Shown piece by piece: positions 21,092-54,732 of a stretch of 64,000 bases of DNA. The translations under genes and the position numbers were made by a program. Positions within the stretch are counted from its first letter, which is position 1, and every line of letters begins with the position of its first letter. The notes beneath the pieces are model-generated. The model was given only the letters and a program-made list of their open reading frames with translations, was not told the DNA's origin and ran no database searches. The DNA comes from Mesaphorura yosii (lineage: Eukaryota; Arthropoda; Collembola; Poduromorpha; Tullbergiidae): contig WIXG01000125.1 of NCBI GenBank assembly GCA_009869945.1, positions 1 through 64,000 on the forward strand. Direction: 5' to 3'.

Positions 21092-21770
21092 CTACAAGAT
21101 CTTCCCAAAGCTATATTCTACATGCACTCTCAAAGCGGACATATTTGCATTGAATTCCTTTTGCAGCGGACTCAGTTTCTGATGACTTTTATAACCCACT
21201 TTGATGAATTTTTGGTTACTATATCCAGGATTTCCATAAAGACAGTGCCATGATCCGTCAGGCATTACAAATTTGGCCTGTAAAGCTCCGAATAAGCCGC
21301 TCATACGGAAAATGACGCTGTCTTGTCTTCGACCATTGAAAGGTCCGTACAATTTTCCTATAAGACCGTTCGGAAATACGACGCTTTGATATTTAAGACA
21401 TGCTACTTTTTGTATCCCCTGTACTGATCCTTCTGACTTCGTTTCGGTCGACAAATCGGTCGTGCTGTGCCGTCAATAAAACCAACCAAATTGGAATAAG
21501 GTGATCCGGCTATGTATATTGCCTGGAAATTATAGACAGGTCCAGAACAAGTATCTTGCCAAATACACACCCTCCGAGAATTCGTCCAGTGTCCGACGAC
21601 CGGACACAATCCCTGTCAGTTAATATATTCAGCGAAAATGGTTGATGATTAAGTGCTTCTTCATTTCGGAGTCTGCACATGCGCTTGTATTCGAGGAAGT
21701 CAGTCACTGATATCACTTTTAGCAAGCACAATTTTCGTAATTGACTTGTTTTTAAGGGTGACATTTTAGT
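21092..21770 (-). pseudogene. Decayed PIF/Harbinger-type transposase (DDE_Tnp_4)
   Basis: Fragments in different frames match the Harbinger nuclease order. First comes GFIDGTARPICRP with the first catalytic Asp (about 21450-21490). After a frameshift at an AAAAAG run (near 21413), LKYQSVVFPNGLIG and YGPFNGRRQDS follow. Next is LYGNPGYS, where the family has a GDP motif, so the second catalytic Asp is Asn here. Last is VEYSFGKIL carrying the Glu. At least one more frame change lies near 21600, and the C-terminal end is missing after about 21092. Two frameshifts, a lost acidic residue and truncation mean this copy is dead. Terminal repeats were not found. Confidence 0.75.
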
Positions 21771-23239: not shown

Positions 23240-26200
23240 ATGACGCAACCAGCAACTCATCGGTGGATACCCGCGGCGGCCATGGACTCATTCATTGCCA
23301 GTGGCGAATCTAGGGAAAAGGATTTGGCCAGCGTCAATGAGTTCTTTGTACCGCTTTCATCACATTTCCAAGACTCAGCCGTGTTTGACACAAACGATCT
23401 CGGCGGCGGTGGAAGCAACAGCTACCTGGCAATGGACGGTCTCAACACAAGCGCAAATTCCGGCCTGGATTATTATCTGGGCGAAGATGGGAACGGCACG
23501 CGAGGCAACATGACTGACGTGCCACAGACAATCCGATTCTCACTTGCTTTTCAAATTGTCATCTACATAATTTATAACACTGTGTTCGTCGCAGCGTTGC
23601 TCGGAAACACGCTCGTGTGCTACGTCGTTTTCAGCAGTCCACGAATGCGGACAGTTACCAATTACCTGATTGGTAAGATTTAATTATACCAGAAATTACC
23701 TGTCTCGCCTTCTTCATTGAATGAAAGAGACTTCAAGAGGCATTTCTGATATCCTGCTTTTATTTTTAGCCAATCTGGCGATTGGAGATTTGTTGATGGC
23801 TCTCCTCTGCGTGCCATTCTCATACATTTCAGTATTACTGCAGTACTGGCCGTTTGGGGAAGTGCTATGTTTGGTGGTAGCTCCGGCTCAGGCGGTGTGC
23901 GTGTTTGTGTCAGCCTACACACTTGTTGCACTAGCAGCGGACAGATACATCGCCATCCTGTATCCTCTGAGACCGAGATTAAGAAGATCCCAGGCCATCA
24001 TCGTCATCTTCCTCGTGTGGACGGTCGCACTCTTGACGGCGGTCCCCATCGCAGTCTACACTAAGCTCAATAACAACGAGATAAACGGGCTGCCGGAATG
24101 CTACGAGGTAACCGAAACAGCTTCCAGCCGTCAGACATAAACCAGATAACTGATCTGGCGCTGCCGCATTGTCCATTAGTAAATTAATTTACAATTCCTG
24201 AGAGGCTCACGCTAAGCCGAGACAATGTCAGATCCTATTCACTCTCGGTATGCAGGTTTTATGCAAAGTATGCAATGTCAAAATTCTGAGAGGGTAAAAA
24301 TGCGTTCACATGTGTAAAGATCAGTCTTCGACGAAGAGGGCCTATGGTCCACATAAATAATGCATCCATCCATTATCGGATCAAGTTCTTGTGCATACAA
24401 GGAAATGCCGAATGCTCCAATAAGTCGCGACTTTTTAAAATGCCACCGAGGCAAAGCTGAAGCTTGATAAATTCACTAGAAACTGTGAACCCTCACTCAG
24501 TCAGTTCTTCGCAAGATCAATGAAATTGGAACATAGTTCTAGGAAATATTTTCCAGAATTTTCAAATGCCTTCGAATAATCTCAAATTGCTATCAACAAA
24601 ATTGCGAAAAACCTTCACTCGATTGAATTGCATGGTTTTTCACCCACTTGCATTTTAAAAGGAAGCCATTTAGTACTCCCTAGTTAGAAAAGGGAATAGA
24701 GCTTAGCCTATTCATACATGTTTTTATATGAAAACAGCTTCGAGCGCTAACGATTTATCTCAATGCGAATCCGACAAAGACTTTCTCTCAAGACGAATAT
24801 GTTTCGGATTTAATAATACGCTGAGTCATTCCTTTGATATAATCACATCTTAACGGTCCCAATTTCGCACGTCCACGCACTGGCAGCTGATTTCGAAGAA
24901 ATTTAGTATTTGTTCATGCAAATTAATAAATTAACATAGTTTGCTCAATGCAAGCAAAGTAATTCAAGACTGAGTTTGTACTTTGTATGCTCCGAATTTA
25001 AAGAAATCGTTCAAGCATGTTGCAAGACGCTAATTCTCTTCAAAGTCACGTTAGCGGCAAATTCTACGTCAATGGCTAGAACTTGAGTCAAAAATAAACA
25101 CTTTGTCTGTCTTTCACCTTGTTTGTACTGACAAGATAAAGTTGAGAACAATAACAAGCCTCTTCGTTCTCGTGCCTGTGATTGACAAGTTTACTTTGGA
25201 TATTTATGGATCGCGTCTTGAGGCATCTCGTGCGTCGAAATTCTGAATATTATAACTGCATGAGTCAGACTTGGAGAGTTACAGAGCGTTCAAGTTCCTC
25301 TCTCGTTCGACCAATAACCCACAGCATTGTTCCCGCCATAAGTAGAATGCATTGTTAAACATGCTCGAAACGAGTGTGATTGACGCGTGCAATTTCTGAG
25401 GCGAAACAAAGTAAAGTTGAATTCTTTCTGGCATCGCTCTCGGGATTCAGAATTATTAACGCGGAAACTTCTAGCATTTTCGTCTTGAATTCAGTTTTTA
25501 CTCTGATTTGTATGCTTCATTTCAGATTTGGCCCAACGACACTCACAAGTTGATCTACAGCTTAATATTAATGATACTTCAGTATTTCTTCCCACTCGCC
25601 GTGTTGATATTCACGTACGCAAGAATTGCGGTCGCTGTTTGGGGAAAGAAGGCGCCCGGAGAAGCGGAGGATGGAAGAGATCAGAGGCTCGCCAAAGCCA
25701 AGAGAAAGGTACGGTGTAAACTAGATTTATTTGTAGTTTGAATGAAGAGTGCATAAATTCACATGAGAAAAGTCATCCGCGCGTCTTCACTCACTCGCTG
25801 ATTGGAGATTATGAATAACGAATGTCAGGGCATTGAGGACATCGCACATCGCTCCATTTGCCCATTTACTTTATTATGACCGAGCTGAGTCACAAAGACA
25901 AAGCTGCAATCGCCGCGAGCACGGAAATATGAAGTGAAAGTGTCAGATTACAATTTTCCTTTTCGACGCAAAAGCGAATTTGGAAATCGAAAATCCAATT
26001 TTGGATGTGATCCATAATATTTTTTTTGACAGCGATGAGATAAACGAAAACAAATCGATAACGTCGACACATTGGATCTCACACTCTCATACAAAAATTG
26101 ATTTCCGGCAAAATTGTTTGAAGGCAATTGAGTTTGTCTGGCCTGCAGCCATCGTTTGTCCTTGTGGTTGCAACGTAATCGGCATTTTCGCACGAGTAAA

Positions 26201-27389
26201 CCTCCGTCCTGGTCCTGATACTGATATGATAAGATTTAAATCCTTTTTTTTATCGAACTGCCAAAAACTTGGAACTTCCAAAAGTTCCAATTCCCAGGCT
26301 TGGCCAAAGCCTAGACGACCTTTAAGCAACTTTTTATTAGGTTCTGAGTCTAATGCGATGATGCAGGGAAGCAGAATCAGGAAGTTGATAAATTTACAAG
26401 TCACGTCACGCCGTAATTAAACACCAAGTTTTTGATTCATAACCAACAACCAAGCTCAGATTTCCATTTTCCTAGTAATTAAGTTTGAAACTCAATTATA
26501 AGCTGTGAGTCTCCTGAAAAGTGCAGGTAAGTTTTTGGCGCCTCGTGAATCGCGGTTGGCTTTTGCTGCCAAAATTAACGCATCAGTATTCAGATTAGGC
26601 TGCAACCTGCAACGGCGTAATCCAGCATTGCGTTCTTTGTATCAGCATTAGCCCATTGGCATTTGGCATTGCTAACGTGTGATTGCTACTAATCAAAGTT
26701 ACTGTTCTTGACATGCCCCTGATTATTATTTTGTGTCTGTTATGTTTATTTTATCACAGACGGTAGTAATGAGCCTGGTCGTTGTTTGCGGATTCACTTT
26801 TGCATGGTTACCGCTGAATCTCCTCAACTTGTGCACTGAACTCCTGCCCTGGATCTTCCATGACCCACCCGCATATGTCATTCATATCTTCTTCGCCAGT
26901 CACTGTCTCGCAATGGCCCACACTGCATATAACCCGATAATTTATGCCTGGATAAATGTCCGGTTCAGAATTGCATTCAAAACTGTCTTTGCCAAAGTCC
27001 ACTGTCCTTGTTTATGTGCATTCTGCCCCGCTTTCCTCAAAGTTGGCTCCACGAGATTCTCTTCCTGCCCCGTCCACAACAACCTCCGTCTCCACTGCAC
27101 CACCACCAACGGAAGAGACTCCATGGGCTACTCAACCACGATCGGAGCCCGCAATGCGATCAACAAAGGACGAATCGCTCGCAACACGACAATGGCAACA
27201 ACACTCAACGGATCGAACGGAACCATTCTCGTCTCTCCAAATGGGTCACTGCATGAGAAAAAGAAAATGCAGGCGAACGGCAACGCCACCGCCAACGATG
27301 GCGGTGCCAGAGAAGAACAGATGAATGGCAGCGGGAGAGTGGAAACAGCCCGACTGCTCCTGAATGGCTCGGCCCCGATTTGGACGTAA
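23240..27389 (+). CDS. RYamide/NPY-like receptor, isoform with proximal last exon (TM6-7 set A)
   Basis: Exons 23240-23672, 23770-24107, 25526-25708 and 26760-27389 join in phase to about 527 residues. The N-terminus is extracellular with NTS, NGT and NMT glycosylation sites. TM1-4 include ANLAIGDLL, LLQYWPFG, a TM3 Cys (GEVLC) and DRYIAI; loop 2 has the partner Cys (LPECYE) followed by IWPND. TM5 ends in the long basic loop KKAPGEAEDGRD, which resembles arthropod RYamide receptors. The last exon continues directly from KRK with TVVMSLVVVCGF, FAWLPLN (TM6), a longer third outer loop with a PP pair, and NPIIYAW (TM7). The tail opens with a cysteine cluster (CPCLCAFCP), a likely palmitoylation site, and later carries NGS/NGT/NAT repeats. 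Both boundaries at 25708 and 26760 are phase 0. It should act as a plasma-membrane neuropeptide receptor; the ligand is inferred from family only. Confidence 0.8.
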
Positions 27390-30300
27390 ATTGAATTCTC
27401 TCATTCGTTTCGTTACTCTTGCTTGCTGTCGCTCGTTGTGGTTTATTAACGAACGTGTTGATGGTCTTGTGCTGTGCTGTTGTATTGCTTGCCTTCGAAT
27501 TGAACGAACTTTGTACCTGTTTGTGCTTGCGGTCCTCTATAAACAACAACTGAAATTCTTTGATTAATTGATTGAAGTTTCACAGTTCAATGGAATTTGT
27601 GGTATAAGATAAAGTGGTGCTTGAGTATGTTTCTCTGTCGTCGTATATCTTTAAAGCGCGCATCCATTTTTCGTGAAATGAACAATGACGGCCGACGAAA
27701 ATGTCAACATGTCACAAAGAAAAGGTCTAGTTACTTCCTTTAGAGAATGTAAAATATGATGATTGAATTGAAACTGCGCCGCGCCGACTTGCAGGACGCG
27801 TCTGCGACAAATTGTCGCAAGTAAGCTTGTTATTGACATAAAAGAGAGCTGATATTTAATATCCTTTATACTACAATAAAACAATGCTTTCCCCGAAAAT
27901 TTCCTGAGTACATCGACAACAAGTCGTAATAAATGAGTTATAAGCCCAAGGGTGCAGTGCAGTCGAGCCGTGATTTCGGGACGAGACTGATAACGACTCA
28001 GTTTTCGTTTTCTCCGTAACTGAAAAGGATGAGTGGAAGTCATGAAAGGAAAATGTGATATGCAATTTATTTTACGAAGTGTTACGAGCCCGACGATGAT
28101 GGCGTTGCATTGCAGTCATGTATAAAAGTAGACAGTAGCGTCGAATACTTTTTCGAATTACTTTTCATTGCACATTGTGCTTACGAGACATGACACGACC
28201 TCCATAATTTATCATACCAGTGGAATGGAATCGCAATGAAGGTCATGTCTGCCATCAGACCAGGCTGTCAGCTCGCGTGGTCGTGGTTGTGGAAATTGGA
28301 GACTTACGACCTCATAATTCATCCTAGCATGTTCTTTTAATGTGAAACGATGTTTTTATTCCGATAGTAGAAATGTGACCCTCGTTTACAACTTACCATA
28401 GTAGGTTACTGAGGCTGGCCTTATTTCTGTGACAAATCGCATACTTAGAACCAAAATTCGCATTACAGACTATTTAACGCGTCCCTTGGGGACGAAATCA
28501 AATTCCAAACCTAGATTTGTGACACATTTGTAAAATACTGAATACGATTGCACTTGCAAGTGCGACTGTACTTGAGGGTGCACGCTCACAACTAAGTTCC
28601 AAGCTCCGACAACTTCTCTGACGTGGGCTGCTGTTCCGTTCACGCGGCCATTTGTACGGAGAAACGGTCAGAAATCAAATTCACGGAAACGAAAGTGAAA
28701 TGTAAAATGAGATGTTGATGGATGTAATTTTTTTCGTGCATTGCCAATGCCCACTCAGTCAGCATCAGCATGCGATTGCATCAACAGCATTATCCCGTGA
28801 AGAATTCTTCCAATTCTCCTCATTATTCATGCAGATTCGTCATGATTCATGCAGAAGTAACATTGCCCGCTCGGATAAGCTTAATAGCTACACCCACGCA
28901 AAAGTCGTCTTGAATCGTGATAACAGATTTACGAGATGAAAAAACCTGACATGAGTCGTTATTACGTATTACACCGGTTTTGAATTTGCAAACGGAAATT
29001 AATCTTGAGAAAATTGCTTTTTTGAGTCGAAGCGTCGAAGGATTTTGGCTTGAGAATGGAAAGACTCCAGAGAAATTGCGCTCATCGTCATTCAGAGCCT
29101 CGAACGATCCATCCTAACGTCATTCTCCTGTTGTTCAGATGCACACTTCAAACTTCTGACGGTTCTTGATTAAAATAAGCTGTGCTCTAAGCTTTCGAGC
29201 ACAAGATTCTATTATAGTGATTACTTTTCGTTTTTCTGCTGCGCTATTTTCTAAATCAGAGAATGGCAGACGACGAACTTTTGCCTTTTGTCTTACTGAT
29301 GCAATGTTCGCATTGACAGTTTTAATTTAAAATTTTGGCGTGGCATTTGAAAGAGGAGATCAGTGACATCAGGAACATGAGACAAGGACAATGGCCTGCC
29401 CTGCACAGATAATTATGAAACGCACCGGGTTAAAAATAGGAAACATTCCACGAATTTGAATATTAAGCGATCAGTTTCACAGGCCGATCGAGTTACTAAT
29501 GCAAGCGTATCAAATCCGAAATTATATTAAGTCATAATTTGTAAAGTAACTTCCTATCTCGCCTATTCCTTTTTCCAACAAATCTACCCAGCACCCCAGT
29601 TCCTCGGCACTGATTCTTCCAGGAAGGCAAAAGGCTGAAAACACGGACTGAATTTAACAAAAGAATCCATTTTTGGAAGTGCCAATGCGGAAAAAAGATG
29701 AAATTGTGAGTGACAGGGCCGACAAGGCCAAAGAGTTGCGCGAATTGAATGAACGCGTTCGCGTTCCTGGCGGACAGACAGAAGAGGCGAGGCTTTCTAC
29801 ACGGATACAAATAAGAGAGATTCGTTTATTGAAGCTTCTGTCCTTGAACAGCATGAAGTTGATGAAAACGTGAACTGACGTGCCGACCCTTTTATGCTGA
29901 TTGCGGTGGAAAAATTTCCAAAGACGTACTCAATTATTTTTAATATGCTGTTCCTTCCTTTTAAAAAACGACAAAGTAGCAGCGAGTTTATAGCGTGCGC
30001 GTGCTCATCTTTTGCTCGAGGTTTCTTTTCAGTTTACTTCCTAATGGAAGTGATTTTGATTTAGAATGGATAATTGAGACCTTTCTCCAAATTATCCCAC
30101 ATAGCGTAGGAGTAGCACATCATTTATGCGAAACGCCAACAGCAAGAAAATAAATGAAGTAAAAGCTGTCTCACTTTTCTTCGTTGTTGCCACTCTTTTA
30201 TTGCTCAGAATGCTAATCACGCTGCCTTTTATTCACACAAAAGACCTTTCATGTCAAAGCTCCTTTGGCTGCTCGTAATTACTTCAACGGAAGCCAATAA

Positions 30301-31590
30301 GACATGAATGCTAATTCACTCTTTCAAATATGATACTCTAATTCGCAGTAGAGGCGTAGAAAGTAGAAAAGAAAGCTGTGCAGCACACTTACGAGCGATG
30401 CAAACCATCCACGAATTTGTAGTCAACACGCGTTGACGCGTTGTCGTATTCACGATGGTTTGGCTACACTTAGTGCTTATTTCCTTTGTTGCACAGAATG
30501 TCTTAAACCATCAACGCGAATTTAAGCTAATTTGTGCCTCTTTCACTATCTAGATGATCAAAATGATGCTGACCGTCGTCTGTGTTTACACAATTTCATG
30601 GCTTCCATTCAACACACTTGTGGTAAGTAAACCCTGCACTTAAAGTGGTACAATACAAAGCTAACATTTTCACGTGAGATCTGTTAACAATGTCAAAGTT
30701 GAAGTAGCTGAAGATAAACATTCATCCTTATTTTATGCGCGTATCTTCCGATTTGTTTTTCCCAGGTGTACGGAGATTTAAACGAGTCGATTTGGCGTTG
30801 GAGCTGCATGCCTTACGTGTACACGTTCATTCATTGGCTGGCGCTTGCTCACACAGTCTGTAACCCGATCATCTACTGCTGGATGAACTCACGTTTTCGT
30901 GCTGGTTTTCGTTCAGCCATCTCCAACGTGCCAGTGATTAAGAAATTACGCAGACTAGGATTCCGTCGTAATTACCAGCAGCAAGAGTACCAGCTCCATC
31001 GGATAAACACGTGCACCACGTACACGTTCGCCAGTCACATGGGGAAACTAGGTCGGAATTCGTCTCTCCTCTCCAGTGGCACTTGCGGCAGGTATGTGGC
31101 AAATGGAAGTCCTGTGCTCTGTCAGCGTTCTTGCCCCTACAACCATCTTCACAAGTACCAGCGGGGCAGTCTGCGCTCGTCCTACGTGAATAATCCATTG
31201 CTGACAGGAAACTCCACTTCAAACGGCATGGCTAACCACGGAGCCTGTGGCCACCTGTCTTCGCTTCCAAGGCCGAGTCGAAACAGCCCACCAGACACAA
31301 GCAACAGCCCAGACCTGATGAACAGTTGCAATGGAAGCAGTTATCACGATTCTGATATCGCGTACGGCAGATACAATCGCCGCAACACAGTCGACAATAC
31401 AAATTATAGCAGAGCACCCACAACTGAACTCGATTCTCCTTCCGTGACCATTACTTCAAGTTACAATTGCAATTCATCTCCTCCAAGAACTTCACTTCTC
31501 CTGAAAGCGGTCACAGGCAACGGGAGCAGGCACCGAAAAAGGAGTTTTGGTCGGAAATTTCCACGTCAGGACTCCGAGTCCTTTGTCTAA
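23240..31590 (+). CDS. RYamide/NPY-like receptor, isoform with distal last exons (TM6-7 set B)
   Basis: Shares exons 23240-23672, 23770-24107 and 25526-25708 with the proximal isoform, then skips to 30554-30622 and 30766-31590, about 615 residues. Exon 30554-30622 (acceptor ATCTAG) encodes 23 residues: MIKMMLTVVCVYTISWLPFN plus TLV. This is close to the canonical RYamide-receptor loop-3/TM6 junction. The next exon gives the outer loop and TM7, with HWLALAHT and NPIIYCWMN. The tail is about 200 residues long, rich in Asn, Ser and Tyr, has no Cys cluster next to TM7, and ends DSESFV, which fits a class I PDZ ligand (S at -2, V at 0). All junctions are phase 0. Because set A has its own stop and poly(A) signal, the two sets are mutually exclusive. 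No second set of TM1-5 exons was found between 27.4 and 30.5 kb. Confidence 0.8.
27875..27880 (+). terminator. Poly(A) signal for the proximal last exon
   Basis: AATAAA about 490 bases after the stop of the proximal receptor exon. It would end the short transcript before the distal exons are made. Confidence 0.5.
27881..30553. other. Intron before the distal TM6 exon
   Basis: About 2.7 kb without a recognisable exon. An isolated plus-strand TATAAAAG lies at 28121-28128, and a perfect tandem repeat of ACGCGTTG lies at 30428-30443, about 110 bases before the distal exon's splice acceptor. Confidence 0.4.
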
Positions 31591-32429
31591 CTCATTTTAA
31601 AGAAGCGAGCGGCCGAGGAAGCGGTAATGGAATTTTATTTTATTCGTACATGTGCTGATAAAGGTATAGAATACAAGAAACTTTCACTTTATAGCACGTT
31701 AAAGACGTTGAGAGCTGAAAGAGTGTAATTAAGGGAGAATATTAAACAGTTAAAATATTCATGTTGTCTTTCAGCGTCTCAGAAAGCCCACTATTGTTAG
31801 CAAAGAATCCTTCTTCGTTTGAAGTGAAACTCGCACAAAAATGTGTTGGGCTTGATTGCGTGGCCTCTTTCGGCAAGATGTGCGCTAGATTCAGTGAAAA
31901 TTTTGTCTGCCTAAGGGTAAGGCTTTCTTTCCAGGTGAATCACCGAAGAAATCTCAATGTTTAGCATTATTTCTTAAGAAGGAGTTGTTTTTGTACAACT
32001 ACATGGAAAATCAAGAGATCTGGTAAGGTAGAATAGTGCTACAGGATAGGTTAGGACTAAAGTATCTCAACTATCTTCTTAGAGTGAATGCGCGTACGGT
32101 CATAAATTGTGCGATATATTGTCAAATATGTCAATAGGTATATTTCTACAAGTTAACTTGAATCGTCACTTCTGCTATACAGTCGTTTGTTAAGATACAT
32201 AGATTAGAAGCGTTATGCACGTGTACGTGATGTATTCATTGTGATGCATGTAGAATACAAGAAGTGATGAAAATTATTGTGAAGGGAGCCTATTCTTGTC
32301 AAAACCTTTGGAGACATTTTAATTTTGCTATTTTTATAAAGTCGTTTACCTGAACTTGACTCATCCCGCTGATTTTTTACGGAATATTGCATGAGAGCGT
32401 GCTATTTTTATGTCCAATTTAAAGCGTGA

Positions 32430-32435
32430 AATAAA
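32430..32435 (+). terminator. Poly(A) signal of the distal receptor transcript
   Basis: AATAAA about 840 bases after the distal stop codon, immediately facing the 3' end of the SDR gene on the other strand. Confidence 0.5.
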
Positions 32436-32479
32436 AGTATGATATTTTTGTTGTCTGGAGCTTGGAAAACATTTTTCAA

Positions 32480-32485
32480 TTTATT
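32480..32485 (-). terminator. Poly(A) signal of the SDR gene
   Basis: AATAAA on the minus strand, about 233 bases past the SDR stop. Cleavage would fall within a few tens of bases of the receptor gene's own 3' end. Confidence 0.5.
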
Positions 32486-32717
32486 CCAGCTTTAAAATTT
32501 CCAGTGAAAAATTGCAGCATATCACGCCAATTATAACTAACTACAGGTAACTTTAGCTTTGTAATCCACGTCTGCTGCATACTGGCTACTGATTTCCGTG
32601 GTTGCTGAAAGTTTATCGAGAAGAAATGAAGTTCATTAGCTGCACTTGGCCAGAAAGTTAAGGACCCGGAAAGCATTTCCATTTGAAGTACTTTCAAATT
32701 CAGAAATTCACAAAATT

Positions 32718-33964
32718 CTATTGTTTCTTCGATCCAATTAGTTTTTCGCTAACTTCCCAAAGTTTACGTGCATCATCATCGGAGACTGGAGCTCGCTTTT
32801 CTGGTGGCCAATAACTGCAATTGCGATACATGTCGCCATTCCTGTCTGTCACATCATTGTGCTTTGAGAGAGCACAGAAGAGCGTAGTTTGGCATCCCTT
32901 CAAAATTCGAAGAATAAATTAATTAGCTAATTTACTCAAATCAGGTTAAAATAACTCAAGCACGTGTACCTCTTGAACAGATTTTCCAAGAAATTCTGTG
33001 AGCAAGAACAGCAACACCATTCTGTGGAAGGGGACATGTCTTCCCAAGTCGGTCGTCACGAGTCCAGGACACAGAGCGTACGTTTGGACTCCCGTTCCTT
33101 CCAGTCTCTTTCCCAATTCCTTTGTGAAGAGTATGTTTGCCATTTTGGAATCGGCGTACAAATCTGAGTATCCGACTTTGTCAATCTTCTTCTCAGCATT
33201 AACATCATCCAGGTCCAATTTGTGGTGTTTGTGCAATGTTGAACTGACATTTATGATTCTGTAAAACACATTGGCATTACATTACATGCATCAAGATTTC
33301 CAGCGCAATGCAACAAGCAATGTGGGGGAAAGTCAGATGACGAACCTAGCAGGAGCCGATTTCTTGATGTTGTCCAACAACAAAGTCGTGAGCAAGAAAT
33401 GTCCCAAATGATTCACACCGAAATGGATTTCAAATCCTTCTTTTGTCTTGGCTTGTTGGGCTGGTGGCATGTACACTCCGGCGTTATTGATCAGAATGTC
33501 CAAGCGAGAGTATTTGTTTTTAAACTGTAGTACAAATTCCCGAACAGAATCCAATGACGCCAAATCCAGTTTCATTGCAACCTGAAAGCAGCACCACCAG
33601 CGAAAGTTTTACATCGACTTTGACTTTGACACAGTATTCCATTGATTTCATCACTCTACACGGGTTCACTTTCACATACCAAATCGGCAAGCGGGACTTT
33701 CTGCTCGATATCCGACATTGCTTCTTTTGCAGAGACGAAATTCCTGCACGCCAACACAACAGTTGCCCCTCGCCTGGCCATTTCGACCGCCGTCTCTTTG
33801 CCGATTCCCGTGTTCGCACCGGTGATCACAACCACCTTGCCCTTGACGTTGATTTCATGATTTGGATCGATTTTACCCCAAACGAATGTGCGCAGAAGAT
33901 ATTGTACGAGGTACTTGAGGACATAATAGCCGATTACCCCGTAGAACAAGATCGTCAACCACAT
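32718..33964 (-). CDS. Retinol dehydrogenase-like short-chain dehydrogenase/reductase, 4 exons
   Basis: Exons 33964-33680, 33581-33346, 33258-32970 and 32897-32718 join in phase to 329 residues. An N-terminal hydrophobic segment (about residues 2-24) would anchor the enzyme in a membrane, as in the RDH11-14 group. The classical SDR signature is complete: cofactor motif TGANTGIG (48-55), NNAG (127-130), catalytic Ser180 in NVSS, and Tyr208/Lys212 in YADSK. Expected reaction: NADP(H)-dependent oxidation or reduction of retinoids or other lipid aldehydes and alcohols; the substrate is not decidable. The ATG at 33964 is the first one in frame with the anchor; a TTG further upstream is not a credible start in an animal gene. 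It is convergent with the receptor gene. Confidence 0.93.
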
Positions 33965-42519: not shown

Positions 42520-45500
42520 ATGGATTTCAGGCACGCAGTGGTCATCGGACTTATTTGTGCGCTGTCCATCGCATCAGGTAAGATTATCGGGAAAATATCT
42601 TTTTTGTAGTTAGTTCACGCTCCTTGTCATCGCTTATCGAAATGCTTGGTCTCTATCTCATTAGTACAGCATTTGTGCTTGTGTTTCTTAATTAGCCTTT
42701 TGACCTATAAGTTGTTCCAATGATTCCGTGCCGAAATTCCATCTGCATTTTGTCATCAGGTGACGCATGATGCTTTCCTATTTTCGATTTCCCTCCTTCA
42801 TATTGCCACAATTAGTGAGTCAAACTCGTCATCATTGAATTTGGTGTATTGGGCACAGTTTGTTCTGTAAATTGAGACCGTTTTCTTATATTTGGCAAAA
42901 ACAGACCAAGGCTTTACAGTCTGCATCGTGGCACGAGATGAGATAACAAATATCACATCTGTCATGTTCACATCGCATCGTTATGTTTGCACTGCACGAG
43001 TAGTTCATGAAGTTCTTAAAATTGATAGGCATTAAATGACGTCAGATTTTCATATTTCAGTGATCAATAATTTGCCTTTTAATCATCCGAGAACATTTCC
43101 ATTGCCATGTCTCACAGCTTCGTCTCGAAAGCAAACCACACTCAAGTAAGGGTTGGGGTTGGTGTTGGTAATTTTTCTGACCATGCATCCGTGACTGAAC
43201 ACTGAATAAATAGAGATTCATAAGACCAATCACTCAGCACTATACTAACTCAGGAGCATTTAGTCTTAGTCATAGGCTGTTCGTGTTGACAATTTAATGC
43301 TTCATTATAATAGCAGAAGTCACAGCGTCGGCATTCCCCACAGTTGATTTGCTGGAATAAATACATAAGATCAAGTACAATTAAAAATGATTCACAAAAT
43401 TCACATAGCACGACGAATCTGGATATTTGTTTTGGGTAGTTCATAGCCAAGAAATTATTTTTTAACCTCCAGTTTTATTTAACCTCTTGTCTTTTAGAAG
43501 CTGGCAATGTACGTATTAAAGTGGTACATGGCGACAGGGAGGATTCTTGATATCGCATGTTTCTTGCATGTTGTATTAGTGCACTCGTTTACCAAATCAC
43601 CGTTGTTTGCTGCCTCTGTAAAGATGCTTCGTGCAATCATGCATATACATTAACACATACATTCGTATACATTAGCTTCTGATAAAATGAACGAGATATG
43701 TTGGTGACTTCTGACCTTTGACTCTTAAAAGGCAGAAACTTCTTATTTGTTGCCTAGTCCCATCTTCGTTCTCGTACACTAAAGTCTTGTGTATCCGTGT
43801 GCATTGACTCGATTACGGCTTAAGTGAATCAGACGCCATTACAAAAATGGCGTACGTGATGGAGTCCATTCTAATTTGCGTTTTGCTTTTAGCTGCGCAC
43901 ATCCAACCCTATGTGGTCAACTATGAAGATGACGAAGCTCTGGATCCTACGTCGCAGAGACCATTGTTGGGACGAAAACATTGCACGTACGGACCCAGTT
44001 ATTGGTGCCACAACATAACACAGGCCAAAGAATGTTCAGCGGTCCCGCATTGTATCACGAACGTTTGGGAATTGATGACCGTGCCTGACGATAACGATGA
44101 CGTTTGTGCTATCTGCAAGGAAATGGTGAAGGAGGCGAGGGATCAGTTACTCAGCAATGAGACCCAGGTAAGTTTATTTGGGACTGCATTTCTCACATTT
44201 TACCATTTGCACCTGAACACTGCTCTCATTTTATGCGAATTAACATTGCAGGACGAGCTTCGTCAAGTTTTGGAAGGCTCGTGCAACTTGATCCCATTGA
44301 AAATAGTCTCAAAGGAATGCTGCAAGTTGGCTGATGATTTCATCCCTGAGCTCGTCGACGCTCTCTCCTCGCGAATGGATCCCGTGACAGTTTGCACGGT
44401 CTCTGGCCTTTGCAACTCAGCCAGAATTGACGAAATGCTTGGGGAAATGAAAGAGCTTGACGAAGACGGGAACACATTCGTTCAAGTTAAAAAACCATTT
44501 GACTTGAAGGAAGACTCATGCCCGAAGTGTACTCATTTCATGGGAAGAGCTATCCAAACACTGAAGGATTTGGATAAGGACGAATTGCGCACAAAATTGT
44601 ATGAGGTATGTTACATGTATGCAAGTAACAATCGACAGAGATAAACCGAGTTGTGCTAAGTGACATATATCCACCAATGAATTTATGTTTCAGGTTTGTG
44701 GCTTCTTTGGGAGTTACTCGGACTCTTGCCGCGCCACCGTCACAAGAGACTTGGATGCCATTTTCATTCACGTTCAGAACATGGACGCAACCGAATTATG
44801 CGGACTGCTTGGACTTTGCTCTGTCGCCTCAATAAATCCAGTAATGCCGAAATTGATCAAACCAGCTAGATATTTCTTGAATTTTCCATCCAACTCGTAT
44901 GTCATTTCTTAAGGTGAGACTCCAGACGGAGACGACGAAGGTCAGAGTTTGGAATCCTCCCAAAAAAGTGGGAGAAGTAGACTGTGATTTCTGCAAGCAA
45001 TTGGTTGACCATGTCAGAGGTTGGTTGACGGCCAACACAACTCGTGAAGAATTTCACAAAATCATCGTTGGCCTGTGTCAGCAAACTGGAAAGTATAAGC
45101 AAGAAGTAGGTCGATGATGACTGTGGTATATAGATAACGTCGGGTAAGAAAGCTAACGTATGAATGTTTCTGCTTTTCTTTCACAGTGCGTTGGCCTTGC
45201 GGATCAATATGCTGGACCACTGTATGACTTCCTTGTTGAAGAAATGGACCCAGCAGAAGTGTGCAAGGAGATTGGGATATGTCACTCTACTATTAAAGGA
45301 AGAGCAAAGGTCGGAATGCAATTTGGTTGTGGCTATTGATGCAAACTCGTAAGGGAACAAGAGATAACTCAGAAATTTTCCACTTTCCGCAGCTCTTTAA
45401 CTCTGAAACAAACGTTGGCCCTATTTGGACATTACTCTCCGTTAAACCAGAAGGAGAAGGAATGGAAAGACTTGTTCCTGGAGAACGCGTCACCGGAGAT

Positions 45501-46918
45501 GATGAAAGGAATTCACACCAGCCAGGATTCACGTATCCAATGATGGAATTGGTTCCCGGCGAAGGCATTATTGGAGAAGACGAAGAAAACGCAATTTTGC
45601 TAGAAACAAACTCAGTTCAAAAGCCCGTGAACGACATTCTTCCAACTTGCCCACTTTGCACATTCACTGTGAATAAGTTAATCGAGTTAATTGGCAAGAA
45701 TTATACCAAGGTAAATTAAGTGCTTCATTGTATCCTCACTTTTAGACAGGGGAAATAATTCAATAATTCCATTTTCTCTGTTTTGCAGGAGTCGATTGAT
45801 CATGCAACTGAACAAGTCTGCTACATGATTCCGAGCAGATACAAAGAATCGTGCTTGAGCTTTATGAGAGAATACGGAGACCGAGTCATGGAGATGATTC
45901 TCATTGAGGGCACTTCTCACGAAATTTGTGCCGCCCTTCATTTGTGCTTGTGGTCAACTGCTCCAGTCTCATCGCCGAAGCCATCACTTACCGTTGTCTC
46001 CAACAGCGCACTTCCCTTCGAACGATATGTGCCAAAAGTTCCGGCAGCTGTCACCAACGTCCAACAGAAGCAAACATGCGTTCTTTGTGAGTTTATTATG
46101 ACTCAGTTGGATGGAATGCTTAAGGATAATTCCACAGAGGTAAGTTGCGCTGAACTGGCTGAACTCATTGAACGCTATCGTCTCGCCTGGCCGGTCCAAT
46201 TCAATTCATTTTTACTTTAACCGATAGGAGGAAATTAAGGATACTGTGGAGCACATTTGTGATTATTTGCCCAAAACTGTGCGGCCACAATGCAGAGCCT
46301 TCATTGAAGAGTACGGTGATATGGTCATCACCTACTTGGCGCAATCATTGGACCCACAGCAAATTGTAAACACTCCCTTTTTTGCGTTGCAAGGTGGTAT
46401 GAAATCTGAGCATCTTAACAGTAATTATTTCTTATTTTTGTAACAGTGTACGGAAATCAAGTTGTGCGACCCAACCTTTAACATCGATATCCGAACCATT
46501 CAAGGTGAGTTGATAACAGATAACCCTACAAACAATGGAAACGTAAACATTTTATAACGATTTCTACAATTTTTTCAGTTGATGAGAATTTGCAGCTCGA
46601 TAGATGCGAGCTTTGTGTCTTGATTTCTGATTACTTGAGTGCCTTCTTGGACGATCCAAATTTTGACACATCAGTTGACAAGTTGGTTGAGAAAATCTGT
46701 CCATTGCTTCCAACAGCTTACAACAATGACGTAAGTTCATTTCACAATGTCGAAGGAAAAAGTTATTCCAGCATGATTAATTTTGGTGCAAAACTTGTTT
46801 TCAGTGCAAAAACATGATTGAGGACTACGGGCCTTATCTTCTGAGTTTGTTGGCTCAAGAAACCGATAAAGGGAAGATTTGCACTGTAATCAACCTTTGT
46901 CCAGCTACACCAGCTTAA
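42520..46918 (+). CDS. Prosaposin-like precursor, one SapA and six SapB domains (12 exons)
   Basis: Exons 42520-42577, 43893-44167, 44252-44605, 44694-44840, 44914-45105, 45187-45309, 45393-45710, 45789-46139, 46228-46365, 46447-46504, 46579-46730 and 46805-46918 join to about 759 residues. After a signal peptide (MDFRHAVVIGLICALSIAS) comes one SapA domain (CTYGPSYWC to CITNVW, residues 50-78). Six saposin-B domains follow, each with the six-Cys pattern, beginning near VCAIC, SCPKC, DCDFC, TCPLC, TCVLC and RCELC and ending near SGLC, LGLC, IGIC, LHLC, IKLC and INLC. Known prosaposins are cut in lysosomes into small sphingolipid-hydrolase activators. The C-terminal SapA of vertebrate prosaposin is absent: the protein stops ten codons after the last Cys motif begins. 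The acidic linker before the fourth SapB repeats LVPGE twice. The donor at 45310 (GTCGGA) is weak, so that boundary is the least certain. Confidence 0.9.
43847..43892 (+). CDS. Alternative start exon segment of prosaposin
   Basis: An ATG at 43847 reads straight into the second prosaposin exon (starting 43893) in the same phase as the spliced first exon. It encodes MAYVMESILICVLLL joined to AAHIQ, a second credible signal peptide. The same bases contain the pyrimidine tract and AG used as acceptor by the upstream exon, so the stretch is either coding or intron. Without transcripts it may be only an intron end that happens to be open. Confidence 0.4.
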
Positions 46919-52910: not shown

Positions 52911-54732
52911 TTACATTTCAGTTGTCTCCCTTGCCGCAGCAGAGAATCGCAGTCTCAGAAACGTGTCGATGTTTATGAATGCCTCGTCAACATTGCCACC
53001 TTCGACGTACAGCGCGAAAGTGTCTTTGTCGTTGGTCGAGTCATAATTTCTGCCTTCCCACTTGCCCGTGACATTGTTCTTCTTGAGAACAAATGCCTGG
53101 TTGATGTTGATGCTCACTCCAAGCTCGGCCAGCTTGGCTTGGATTGTTGCGTTGATGGCCGGAGTCTGGAACTGCTCGCTGCCAGGGCTCACACGCCCGA
53201 GGAACTGGAAGCTTGTGCTGTCATCAAACAGGACGAACTCAATAGCCGGCATCTTCATAACGTTCAGCCAAAGCTCAAATCGTGAGAAGGGAACACTGCC
53301 AAAATTCTTGCCGTCGAAGAATATCCGCTTCGTGTCGAATATCTCGTGGAACTTGCTGATGATGGCTGGATTTTTTATTCCGATGTGATGAAGGTACAAA
53401 TGATTCAGGGTAAATTTGGTGTCAAGTAATGTGATGTTGTTTCTGTAGTCGATTTCAACCAATCCCAGTCTCAGCTCACGGACATTTGTGGTGACGTCGA
53501 CAAGATCGATTTGCTCCATTTCCTTTGGAAAGTGCTCTGACCCCATAAAGTAGAGTCTGTGCAGCTTCTTGAATTTACTGATGGTGCTCGACAGAAGCTT
53601 TGGGTTCTCGGTGAAGTTGATGCTGCCCAAATGCAGCTGAGTTAGCTGATCGTAGAATTTTGCCAGCAAAGAGAGCTTCAGTGGGCAGGTGCGGAGGTTC
53701 AGCTTTTTCAGCTGGAAATAGGGCGGATTTTCCTTCAAAAGATTTGTCAGAATTTCCTCACTGAACCCAAGCACGGACGTCAGCTCTCCTTCGTCCTTGT
53801 CCAGCGTGAATAAATGAAAGCCAAACAAAGTGATTTGGATTGTGGCATTAAGTTGGTACACACGCGATATGTCCAACCTCGAACTACGATAGTCCCTTAA
53901 AGAAAGAACGTCCCTAGTGTTAAAGAATATTAAGGACTTCAAACAGTCCTTATCTTGAAACGTAGAAAACGTCAACGCTGAACTCAAATCACTAACGGAG
54001 CAGTTTCGGTTTTTAAAGCGCAGCATTTCCCGTGCTCCGATGGGTTGATTCAACTCAAGCTTGTAATACCGCAATGCAGGCAGAAAGACTTCCTTTTGAA
54101 CACCCATTCGGCCGAAGAAGGTGACATTCACCAGCGAGAGTGTCTTCAACTTGCTCAAGCGATCGAGTTCATTGAGAAGAACAGCTGGATTGACTTCGAC
54201 ATTGTTGAGCCTCAGGTGAACGATTGACCACTTGTTGGGAATCGATACAAACTGCTCCATCATGTCCGACTTCTCCGTTCCGTTCAGGGTGAACGTGTAT
54301 TCGTACTTGGATCTGATTGTCTCTTTATCGTCGTCGATAATGTCCCTCCACGAGTCCCGCTCCTTGTAATATTGACGTTCAGTCTGCCTTTCCACTTCCA
54401 TTATCGCCAGGTCGAGGATCAGAACGAGGGAGAGGGTGATACCGATGGTGATCAGCAAAGCGAGCAGAGCAGTTCTTGCGGAGAAGCAGCAGGCGCACGC
54501 CTCCTTCGATGGTTGGTCGCTGCCAACTGCAAGAATTGTACACTTTAGCTGCTTTATTCTGGTGCTAGAAGGCATGCGATGCAAATTACAACTTGCAAAT
54601 CTTACCGTCACTTGTACTTTCACCACCGAGAATCTGCCTCATCTCAGTATCAGAATGAGCCCGTGTGCTGGTCACTTCCGGTTCCAGGTCCAACTCGTCC
54701 GAACCAGCGTCGAAAGAATTCCTGGTGGCCAT
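52911..54732 (-). CDS. Type II membrane protein with irregular leucine-rich repeats, unknown function
   Basis: Two exons, 54732-54606 and 54526-52911, give about 580 residues. The first 60 residues are acidic and cytosolic, starting MATRNSFDAGSDELDLEPEV, and end in a Cys cluster (ACACC). One transmembrane segment follows (ALLALLITIGITLSLVLILD), then an ectodomain of about 490 residues. Irregular LRR strands recur: VHLRLNNVEVN, LKTLSLVNVTF, LKKLNLRTCPLK, LTQLHLGSINFTEN, LHRLYFMGSEHF, VRELRLGLVEID and LNHLYLHHIGI. Several N-glycosylation sites are present. There is no secretion signal ahead of the TM, so type II orientation is inferred. No enzyme motif. The nearly intronless ectodomain and lack of a known family suggest a lineage-restricted cell-surface protein. 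Confidence 0.75.

Follow-up and report, generated by a model that had tools for sequence, protein, structure and literature searches.

A collembolan peptide-receptor gene with two predicted alternative TM6–TM7 endings

The subject of this study is a receptor gene on the forward strand of a 64,000-nucleotide stretch of the genome of Mesaphorura yosii (positions 1 to 64,000 of contig WIXG01000125.1; hereafter the window), which forms part of a 197-kb contig that we label C125 and was analysed together with the rest of the assembly (93.0 Mb searched, in 1127 contigs). The gene product is a class A (rhodopsin-like) G-protein-coupled receptor, as the Pfam family 7tm_1 extends across its seven transmembrane helices (TM1 to TM7) and the DRY, WLP and NPxxY motifs are in place. 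What was found is a single shared 5′ part with two complete in-frame endings downstream of it on that strand, an arrangement of the ETHR and OAMB kind. The best explanation, to which we assign a probability of roughly 0.76, is a single receptor gene with a tandemly duplicated 3′ exon module, the two endings of which (A and B) would be spliced as mutually exclusive last exons.

Gene architecture

The shared part consists of three exons on the + strand that together encode 318 residues, from TM1 through TM5. Exon 1 (23240..23672), an open reading frame (ORF) within the 7tm_1 match of the isoforms, opens with the presumed start codon, the ATG at 23240, encodes TM1 and the start of TM2 behind a long N terminus that carries NxS/T sites, and ends at the donor TTG/GTAAGA (the slash marks the exon border). 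Exon 2 (23770..24107), delimited by an acceptor and a donor and matched by PF00001 at 23760-24146 (E 2.9e-28), encodes TM2 to TM4, the DRY motif included. Exon 3 (25526..25708), placed by its splice site and translation, supplies the end of outer loop 2, TM5 and inner loop 3, and terminates in ...AKAKRK in phase 0, its donor at 25708 reading AAG/GTACGG. A preliminary description of this DNA had placed the gene at 25526..31590, a span that takes in both endings but begins too late, since the shared part reaches back to 23240.

Ending A is a single alternative last exon (26760..27389, + strand; open frame 26712-27386) that carries TM6 (FAWLPLN), outer loop 3, TM7 (NPIIYAW), a cysteine-rich stretch after TM7, a tail and a stop codon. 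Ending B is divided between the alternative exon B1 (30554..30622, + strand), which encodes TM6 (ISWLPFN), and the alternative last exon B2 (30766..31590, + strand), which holds outer loop 3, TM7 (NPIIYCW), a tail of ~220 residues and a stop codon. The acceptors read TTATCACAG/ACG at 26760 for A, CACTATCTAG/ATG at 30554 for B1 and TTTTTCCCAG/GTG at 30766 for B2, and the B1 donor at 30622 reads GTG/GTAAGT. An in-frame TAG ends precisely at the B1 acceptor, so that B1 is readable only once it has been spliced. GT/AG signals and matching phases are present at every one of these borders, in agreement with the earlier proposal that 25708, after KRK, can be joined in frame to either set. The spliced translations are free of stops, giving 527 amino acids (aa) for isoform A (exons 1-3 + A) and 615 aa for isoform B (exons 1-3 + B1 + B2), and these uninterrupted translations bear out a TM6, a TM7 and a stop codon in each set. 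With residues numbered from W6.48, the cut falls between 6.32 and 6.33, and the alternative parts thus begin at residue 6.33.

On a generic splice-site score, which uses general base frequencies rather than ones trained on this genome, the acceptors of A, B1 and B2 fall within the top 1.3%, 2.2% and 0.4% of the window's 3713 AGs; among its 3692 GTs, the exon 3 donor is in the top 0.7% and the B1 donor in the top 0.4%. Three AGs in the intron before B (at 30497, 30209 and 29139) outscore the acceptors of A and B1 and are possible borders of cryptic or unknown exons. Candidate poly(A) hexamers follow each set on the + strand, as had been described: AATAAA at 27875 and 27928 after A (27875..27933), and ATTAAA at 31741 and AATAAA at 32430 after B (31741..32435). 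They are weak evidence, because seven such hexamers occur within 27390-33000, including those at 29169, 30149 and 32913.

The receptor signal of the two endings

A TM6–TM7 profile was built from 21 other receptors, A and B being excluded to keep the comparison non-circular, and used to search both strands of the window, which hold 2461 stop-to-stop frames 18 or more codons long. It picked out the A frame (E 1.1e-16), B2 (3.9e-14) and B1 (1.5e-6), the next best frame reaching only 0.08. The Pfam 7tm_1 score rises from 162.7 bits for the shared TM1–TM5 alone to 196.6 with set A and 206 with set B, and both isoforms cover PF00001 from end to end (positions 1-260 of 260). Set B by itself also matches 7tm_1 (E 5.7e-8). 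An open frame of at least 225 codons, the length of A's frame, arose in 1 of 500 dinucleotide shuffles of 25709-32500.

Receptor family

Comparison with the PDB, limited to the best 60 of 843 and 864 matches for the two isoforms, places the NK1–NK3 tachykinin receptors at the top for both, followed by NPY2 and NPFF receptors. Isoform B fits the tachykinin receptors more closely, with 207 bits against 172 for isoform A on NK2R and 200 against 181 on NK1R; likewise, the residues of NK1R and NK3R at K6.35-M6.36-M6.37 (in the same numbering) are retained in B, the corresponding residues of A being V-M-S. Judged by these sequence relatives, the gene is an arthropod class A peptide receptor akin to the tachykinin, luqin/RYamide and NPY receptors.

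Within that group, a RYamide/luqin receptor is our leading guess, reached by elimination, because the genome has separate genes that we take to be tachykinin-like (C589), NPF-like (C326 and C238) and probably kinin-like (C123), each named here by its contig. ETHR itself was considered and set aside: the exchange here begins at residue 6.33, not at the end of TM4, and the PDB relatives among the best 60 are tachykinin, NPY and NPFF receptors. The relatives of ETHR are presumably of the neuromedin-U/TRH type, a different receptor family. Receptors of the luqin and tachykinin types are described as paralogues of each other (PMC5940834). Prokaryote genome contigs and viral contigs yielded no relatives of the window gene, which is what one would expect of a gene from an animal. 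In the assembly as a whole, 66 matches to Chitin_bind_4, a family typical of arthropod cuticle, point to an arthropod source, and a search for COX1 gave no match. A tardigrade source was also considered and rejected: 14 lipocalin-family matches were present, and for the two of them compared with the PDB, the best 60 of 243 and 213 sequences were fatty-acid-binding, retinoic-acid-binding or myelin P2 proteins, with no tardigrade heat-soluble protein among them.

Relationship of the two endings and age of the joint

Over TM6–TM7, A and B are 41% identical (E 8.5e-10; 43% if four shared residues are counted), and 60 nucleotides of their TM7 coding DNA are 70% identical. Their relationship was examined in a tree of 23 hand-picked TM6–TM7 segments, comprising A, B, three human tachykinin receptors and 18 genes of this genome. 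These 18 were picked from 36 segment rows, several rows being one gene, and 24 of 62 loci (window-gene pieces, lipocalin loci and loci that duplicated others) had been left out before the segments were listed. A and B emerge as sisters with moderate support (88/86), on branches of 1.14 and 0.58, respectively. A is the more diverged ending, and B seems to be the conserved form. The simplest history would be that the exon or exons after the intron that precedes TM6 were duplicated in tandem. The intron between B1 and B2 is absent from A and from all 18 genome genes in the tree, in which TM6 to TM7 lie in one frame, and its gain in B is thus likelier than its loss in A; C244, a gene outside the tree, is split further downstream than this intron. 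Among the genome receptors, whose NPFR-like, TKR-like, kinin-like and SIFamide-type labels are our presumption, three closely similar TM6–TM7 segments (L029, L031 and L032, on C171, C593 and C353), presumably of the SIFamide-receptor type, represent a receptor family expansion.

The position of the joint was also compared in 11 other receptor genes of this genome. A splice signal at the identical place and in phase 0 was found in two of them, one side being seen in each: the tachykinin-like gene C589 has the acceptor TTTCCAG/ATT at the joint position, and the C123 receptor has the donor AAG/GTAATT there, after its TM5 exon (L038:6904-7107). Shared with two of the 11 relatives, the joint intron seems older than the window gene, but it is not general.

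Alternative explanations

Given that tandem copies are a usual source of duplicated exons and that the assembly is divided among so many contigs, the layout could be an artefact in which the second of two tandem receptor genes lost its TM1–TM5 exons by collapse. However, the window contains no N characters, and a genome search with the shared 318 residues returned 74 matches at E <= 1e-3, among which exons 1-3 are the only ones on C125. The best TM1–TM5 match outside this contig is just 39% identical, and the search thus revealed no second copy of nearly the same sequence in the rest of the assembly. Nor does the stretch between A and B hold receptor fragments: a phmmer search with filters off found no further credible TM1–TM5 piece in the 2461 frames of the window (extra matches E >= 0.14), and no Pfam match (E <= 1) appeared in the 10 scanned of the 14 ORFs of at least 60 aa that overlap 27951-30553. 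Since the searches of frames, ORFs and contig gave none, the distal set has no TM1–TM5 exons of its own that could be found, either in the window or, at E <= 1e-3, on the contig; a separate set of such exons is what the preliminary description had named as contradicting its reading. We regard collapse as highly improbable, and more improbable still is transcription of the distal set from its own promoter into a TM6–TM7–tail fragment. B1 does begin with an ATG codon, but the TAG shuts its frame right at a good acceptor, B1 is in phase with exon 3, and such a fragment would have no known function.

A different concern is whether both endings are used. One of them, most likely B, may serve alone, the other being a duplicate exon that is silent or in decay although its frame is still open, and both the long branch of A and the failure of set A by itself to match any Pfam family at 1e-5 point in that direction. 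However, A still has its 225-codon open frame, of a length seldom reached in the shuffles, both the WLP and the NPxxY motif, an acceptor for splicing and a downstream poly(A) hexamer, which makes such decay distinctly unlikely in our view. Another alternative touches origin only and fits two spliced endings equally well: A may have been captured from an NPF-receptor-like gene instead of being duplicated from B. The closest genome match of A besides itself is indeed the C326 receptor (45%, E 1.6e-10), and a grouping of A with the NPF-receptor-like C326 and C238 is not rejected by the approximately unbiased test (p-AU 0.098; 0.18 when C108 is added). The best tree nevertheless pairs A with B, B (itself aside) matches A most closely in the genome, and the insertion point and order of the two are identical; capture is therefore unlikely. 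Along with the Pfam result for A and the unrejected C326 grouping, several further observations weigh against a gene with two duplicated, functional endings. Grouping B with the tachykinin receptors is not rejected either (p-AU 0.18), and the sisterhood of A and B in these sequences is not strongly supported; the prolactin-releasing-peptide receptor fits isoform A better than isoform B (164 vs 157 bits). Nine of the 11 compared genes are without a joint at the exact position: a single frame runs across it in five (C171, C422, C447, C238 and C108), an AG lies a few codons upstream in two (C353 and C593), and an acceptor-like AG lies some codons downstream in the remaining two (C421 and C326). 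Better-scoring AGs occur nearby, the acceptors of A and B1 ranking 6th and 9th of the 272 AGs in 25760-31000. Finally, both junctions are predicted from the genomic sequence of one species.

Proposed mechanism

For a single gene with two mutually exclusive last exons, which remains our preferred reading, use of both junctions (25708-26760 and 25708-30554) is predicted, and the following sequence of events can be envisaged. Exon 3 would encounter the acceptor of A first, and if A is chosen, the transcript would be terminated at A's poly(A) site. If A is skipped, exon 3 would instead be joined to B1 and B2, and the distal poly(A) site would be used. Which ending is chosen may depend on how the proximal 3′ splice site or poly(A) site competes with the distal acceptor. 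The products would be two full seven-TM receptors that are common through K6.32 (inner loop 3, KRK included) and differ in the G-protein-facing side of TM6, outer loop 3, TM7, helix 8 and the tail. The earlier proposal of two complete seven-TM receptors thus holds as regards a single TM1–TM5 module and two full TM6–TM7–tail endings.

Isoforms built in this way would be expected to couple to G proteins and to desensitise differently, and their ligand preferences may differ too. After TM7, A carries the cysteine cluster CPCLCAFC, a possible lipid-anchor site, and B has no such cluster there. In such receptors the ligand pocket is lined in part by TM6, outer loop 3 and TM7, so the swap need not keep ligand binding common, and the “common ligand-binding half” of the preliminary description is a simplification.

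Relation to known systems

The layout itself is already known from insect ETHR and Drosophila OAMB, and the contrast that had been drawn with the truncated forms “usually reported” for receptor splice variants is overstated, as complete isoforms that swap their 3′ parts are published for both ETHR (PMC8175484) and OAMB (PMC2650798). The Drosophila OAMB isoforms K3 and AS exchange complete 3′ parts, and both raise Ca2+ in cell lines, K3 raising cyclic AMP too (PMC2650798). OAMB is an amine receptor, whereas the window gene encodes a peptide receptor, and the OAMB isoforms diverge within inner loop 3, those of the window gene at its end. ETHR-A and ETHR-B resemble the window gene in that one gene with common 5′ exons and two alternative 3′ endings yields complete receptors; in the Bombyx nervous system their expression is non-overlapping, and they differ in ligand sensitivity (PMC8175484, PMC8291126). 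The Bombyx exchange, however, starts from the end of TM4 and involves ~60% of the protein (PMC8175484), as opposed to the start of TM6 here, and a single ETHR form is described in mites and locust (PMC8291126).

Nearer to the window gene stand the vertebrate receptors NK1R–NK3R, the best PDB relatives of both isoforms among the best 60, and the tachykinin-like gene C589, which has its phase-0 acceptor at the same place before TM6. Aplysia and vertebrate tachykinin receptor isoforms vary in the C-terminal tail (PMC11365428), unlike the TM6–TM7 swap proposed here. In Drosophila, 14 of 49 neuropeptide receptor genes are said to yield alternatively spliced isoforms, RYa-R and ETH-R among them, and one form of CAPA-R is truncated within TM6 (PMC9624432). 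RYa-R, probably a family neighbour of the window gene, has three alternatively spliced isoforms, which the excerpt of that source treats as alternative C termini, with no TM6–TM7 exchange found in it (PMC9624432). No such exchange in the tachykinin/luqin/NPY branch was found in searches of open-licence literature, which is weak evidence of absence, as subscription papers fall mostly outside it. We lean slightly towards the view that this is the first receptor of that branch in which an exact cassette from residue 6.33 onwards is swapped by alternative last exons.

Other features of the window

Saposin-type domains (SapA/SapB) occur in two frames on the + strand, at 43808-44644 and 45759-46220, which probably belong to one multi-saposin gene. 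A 575-codon open frame on the − strand (52911-54638) has a leucine-rich look and, by eye, a candidate membrane segment, and gave no Pfam match at 1e-3. A DDE_Tnp_4 transposase fragment (21095-21472, − strand; E 7.4e-15) lies upstream of the receptor gene, ~2 kb from its start codon. None of the Rfam families reached its gathering score in the window.

Implications

If the proposed gene structure is true, the front half of one peptide receptor would be connected, via an ancient intron, to two different back halves that bear the contacts with G protein and arrestin and outer loop 3. Such a gene would amount to a natural chimera experiment, in which TM1–TM5 are held constant and combined with two TM6–TM7–tail modules, the joint lying at the cytoplasmic, G-protein-contacting end of TM6. 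Comparing the isoforms would show the share of this module in coupling, desensitisation and peptide selectivity. Taken together with ETHR and OAMB, the window gene suggests that arthropods have repeatedly diversified their receptors by means of alternative 3′ exons, in this case at an old intron before TM6.
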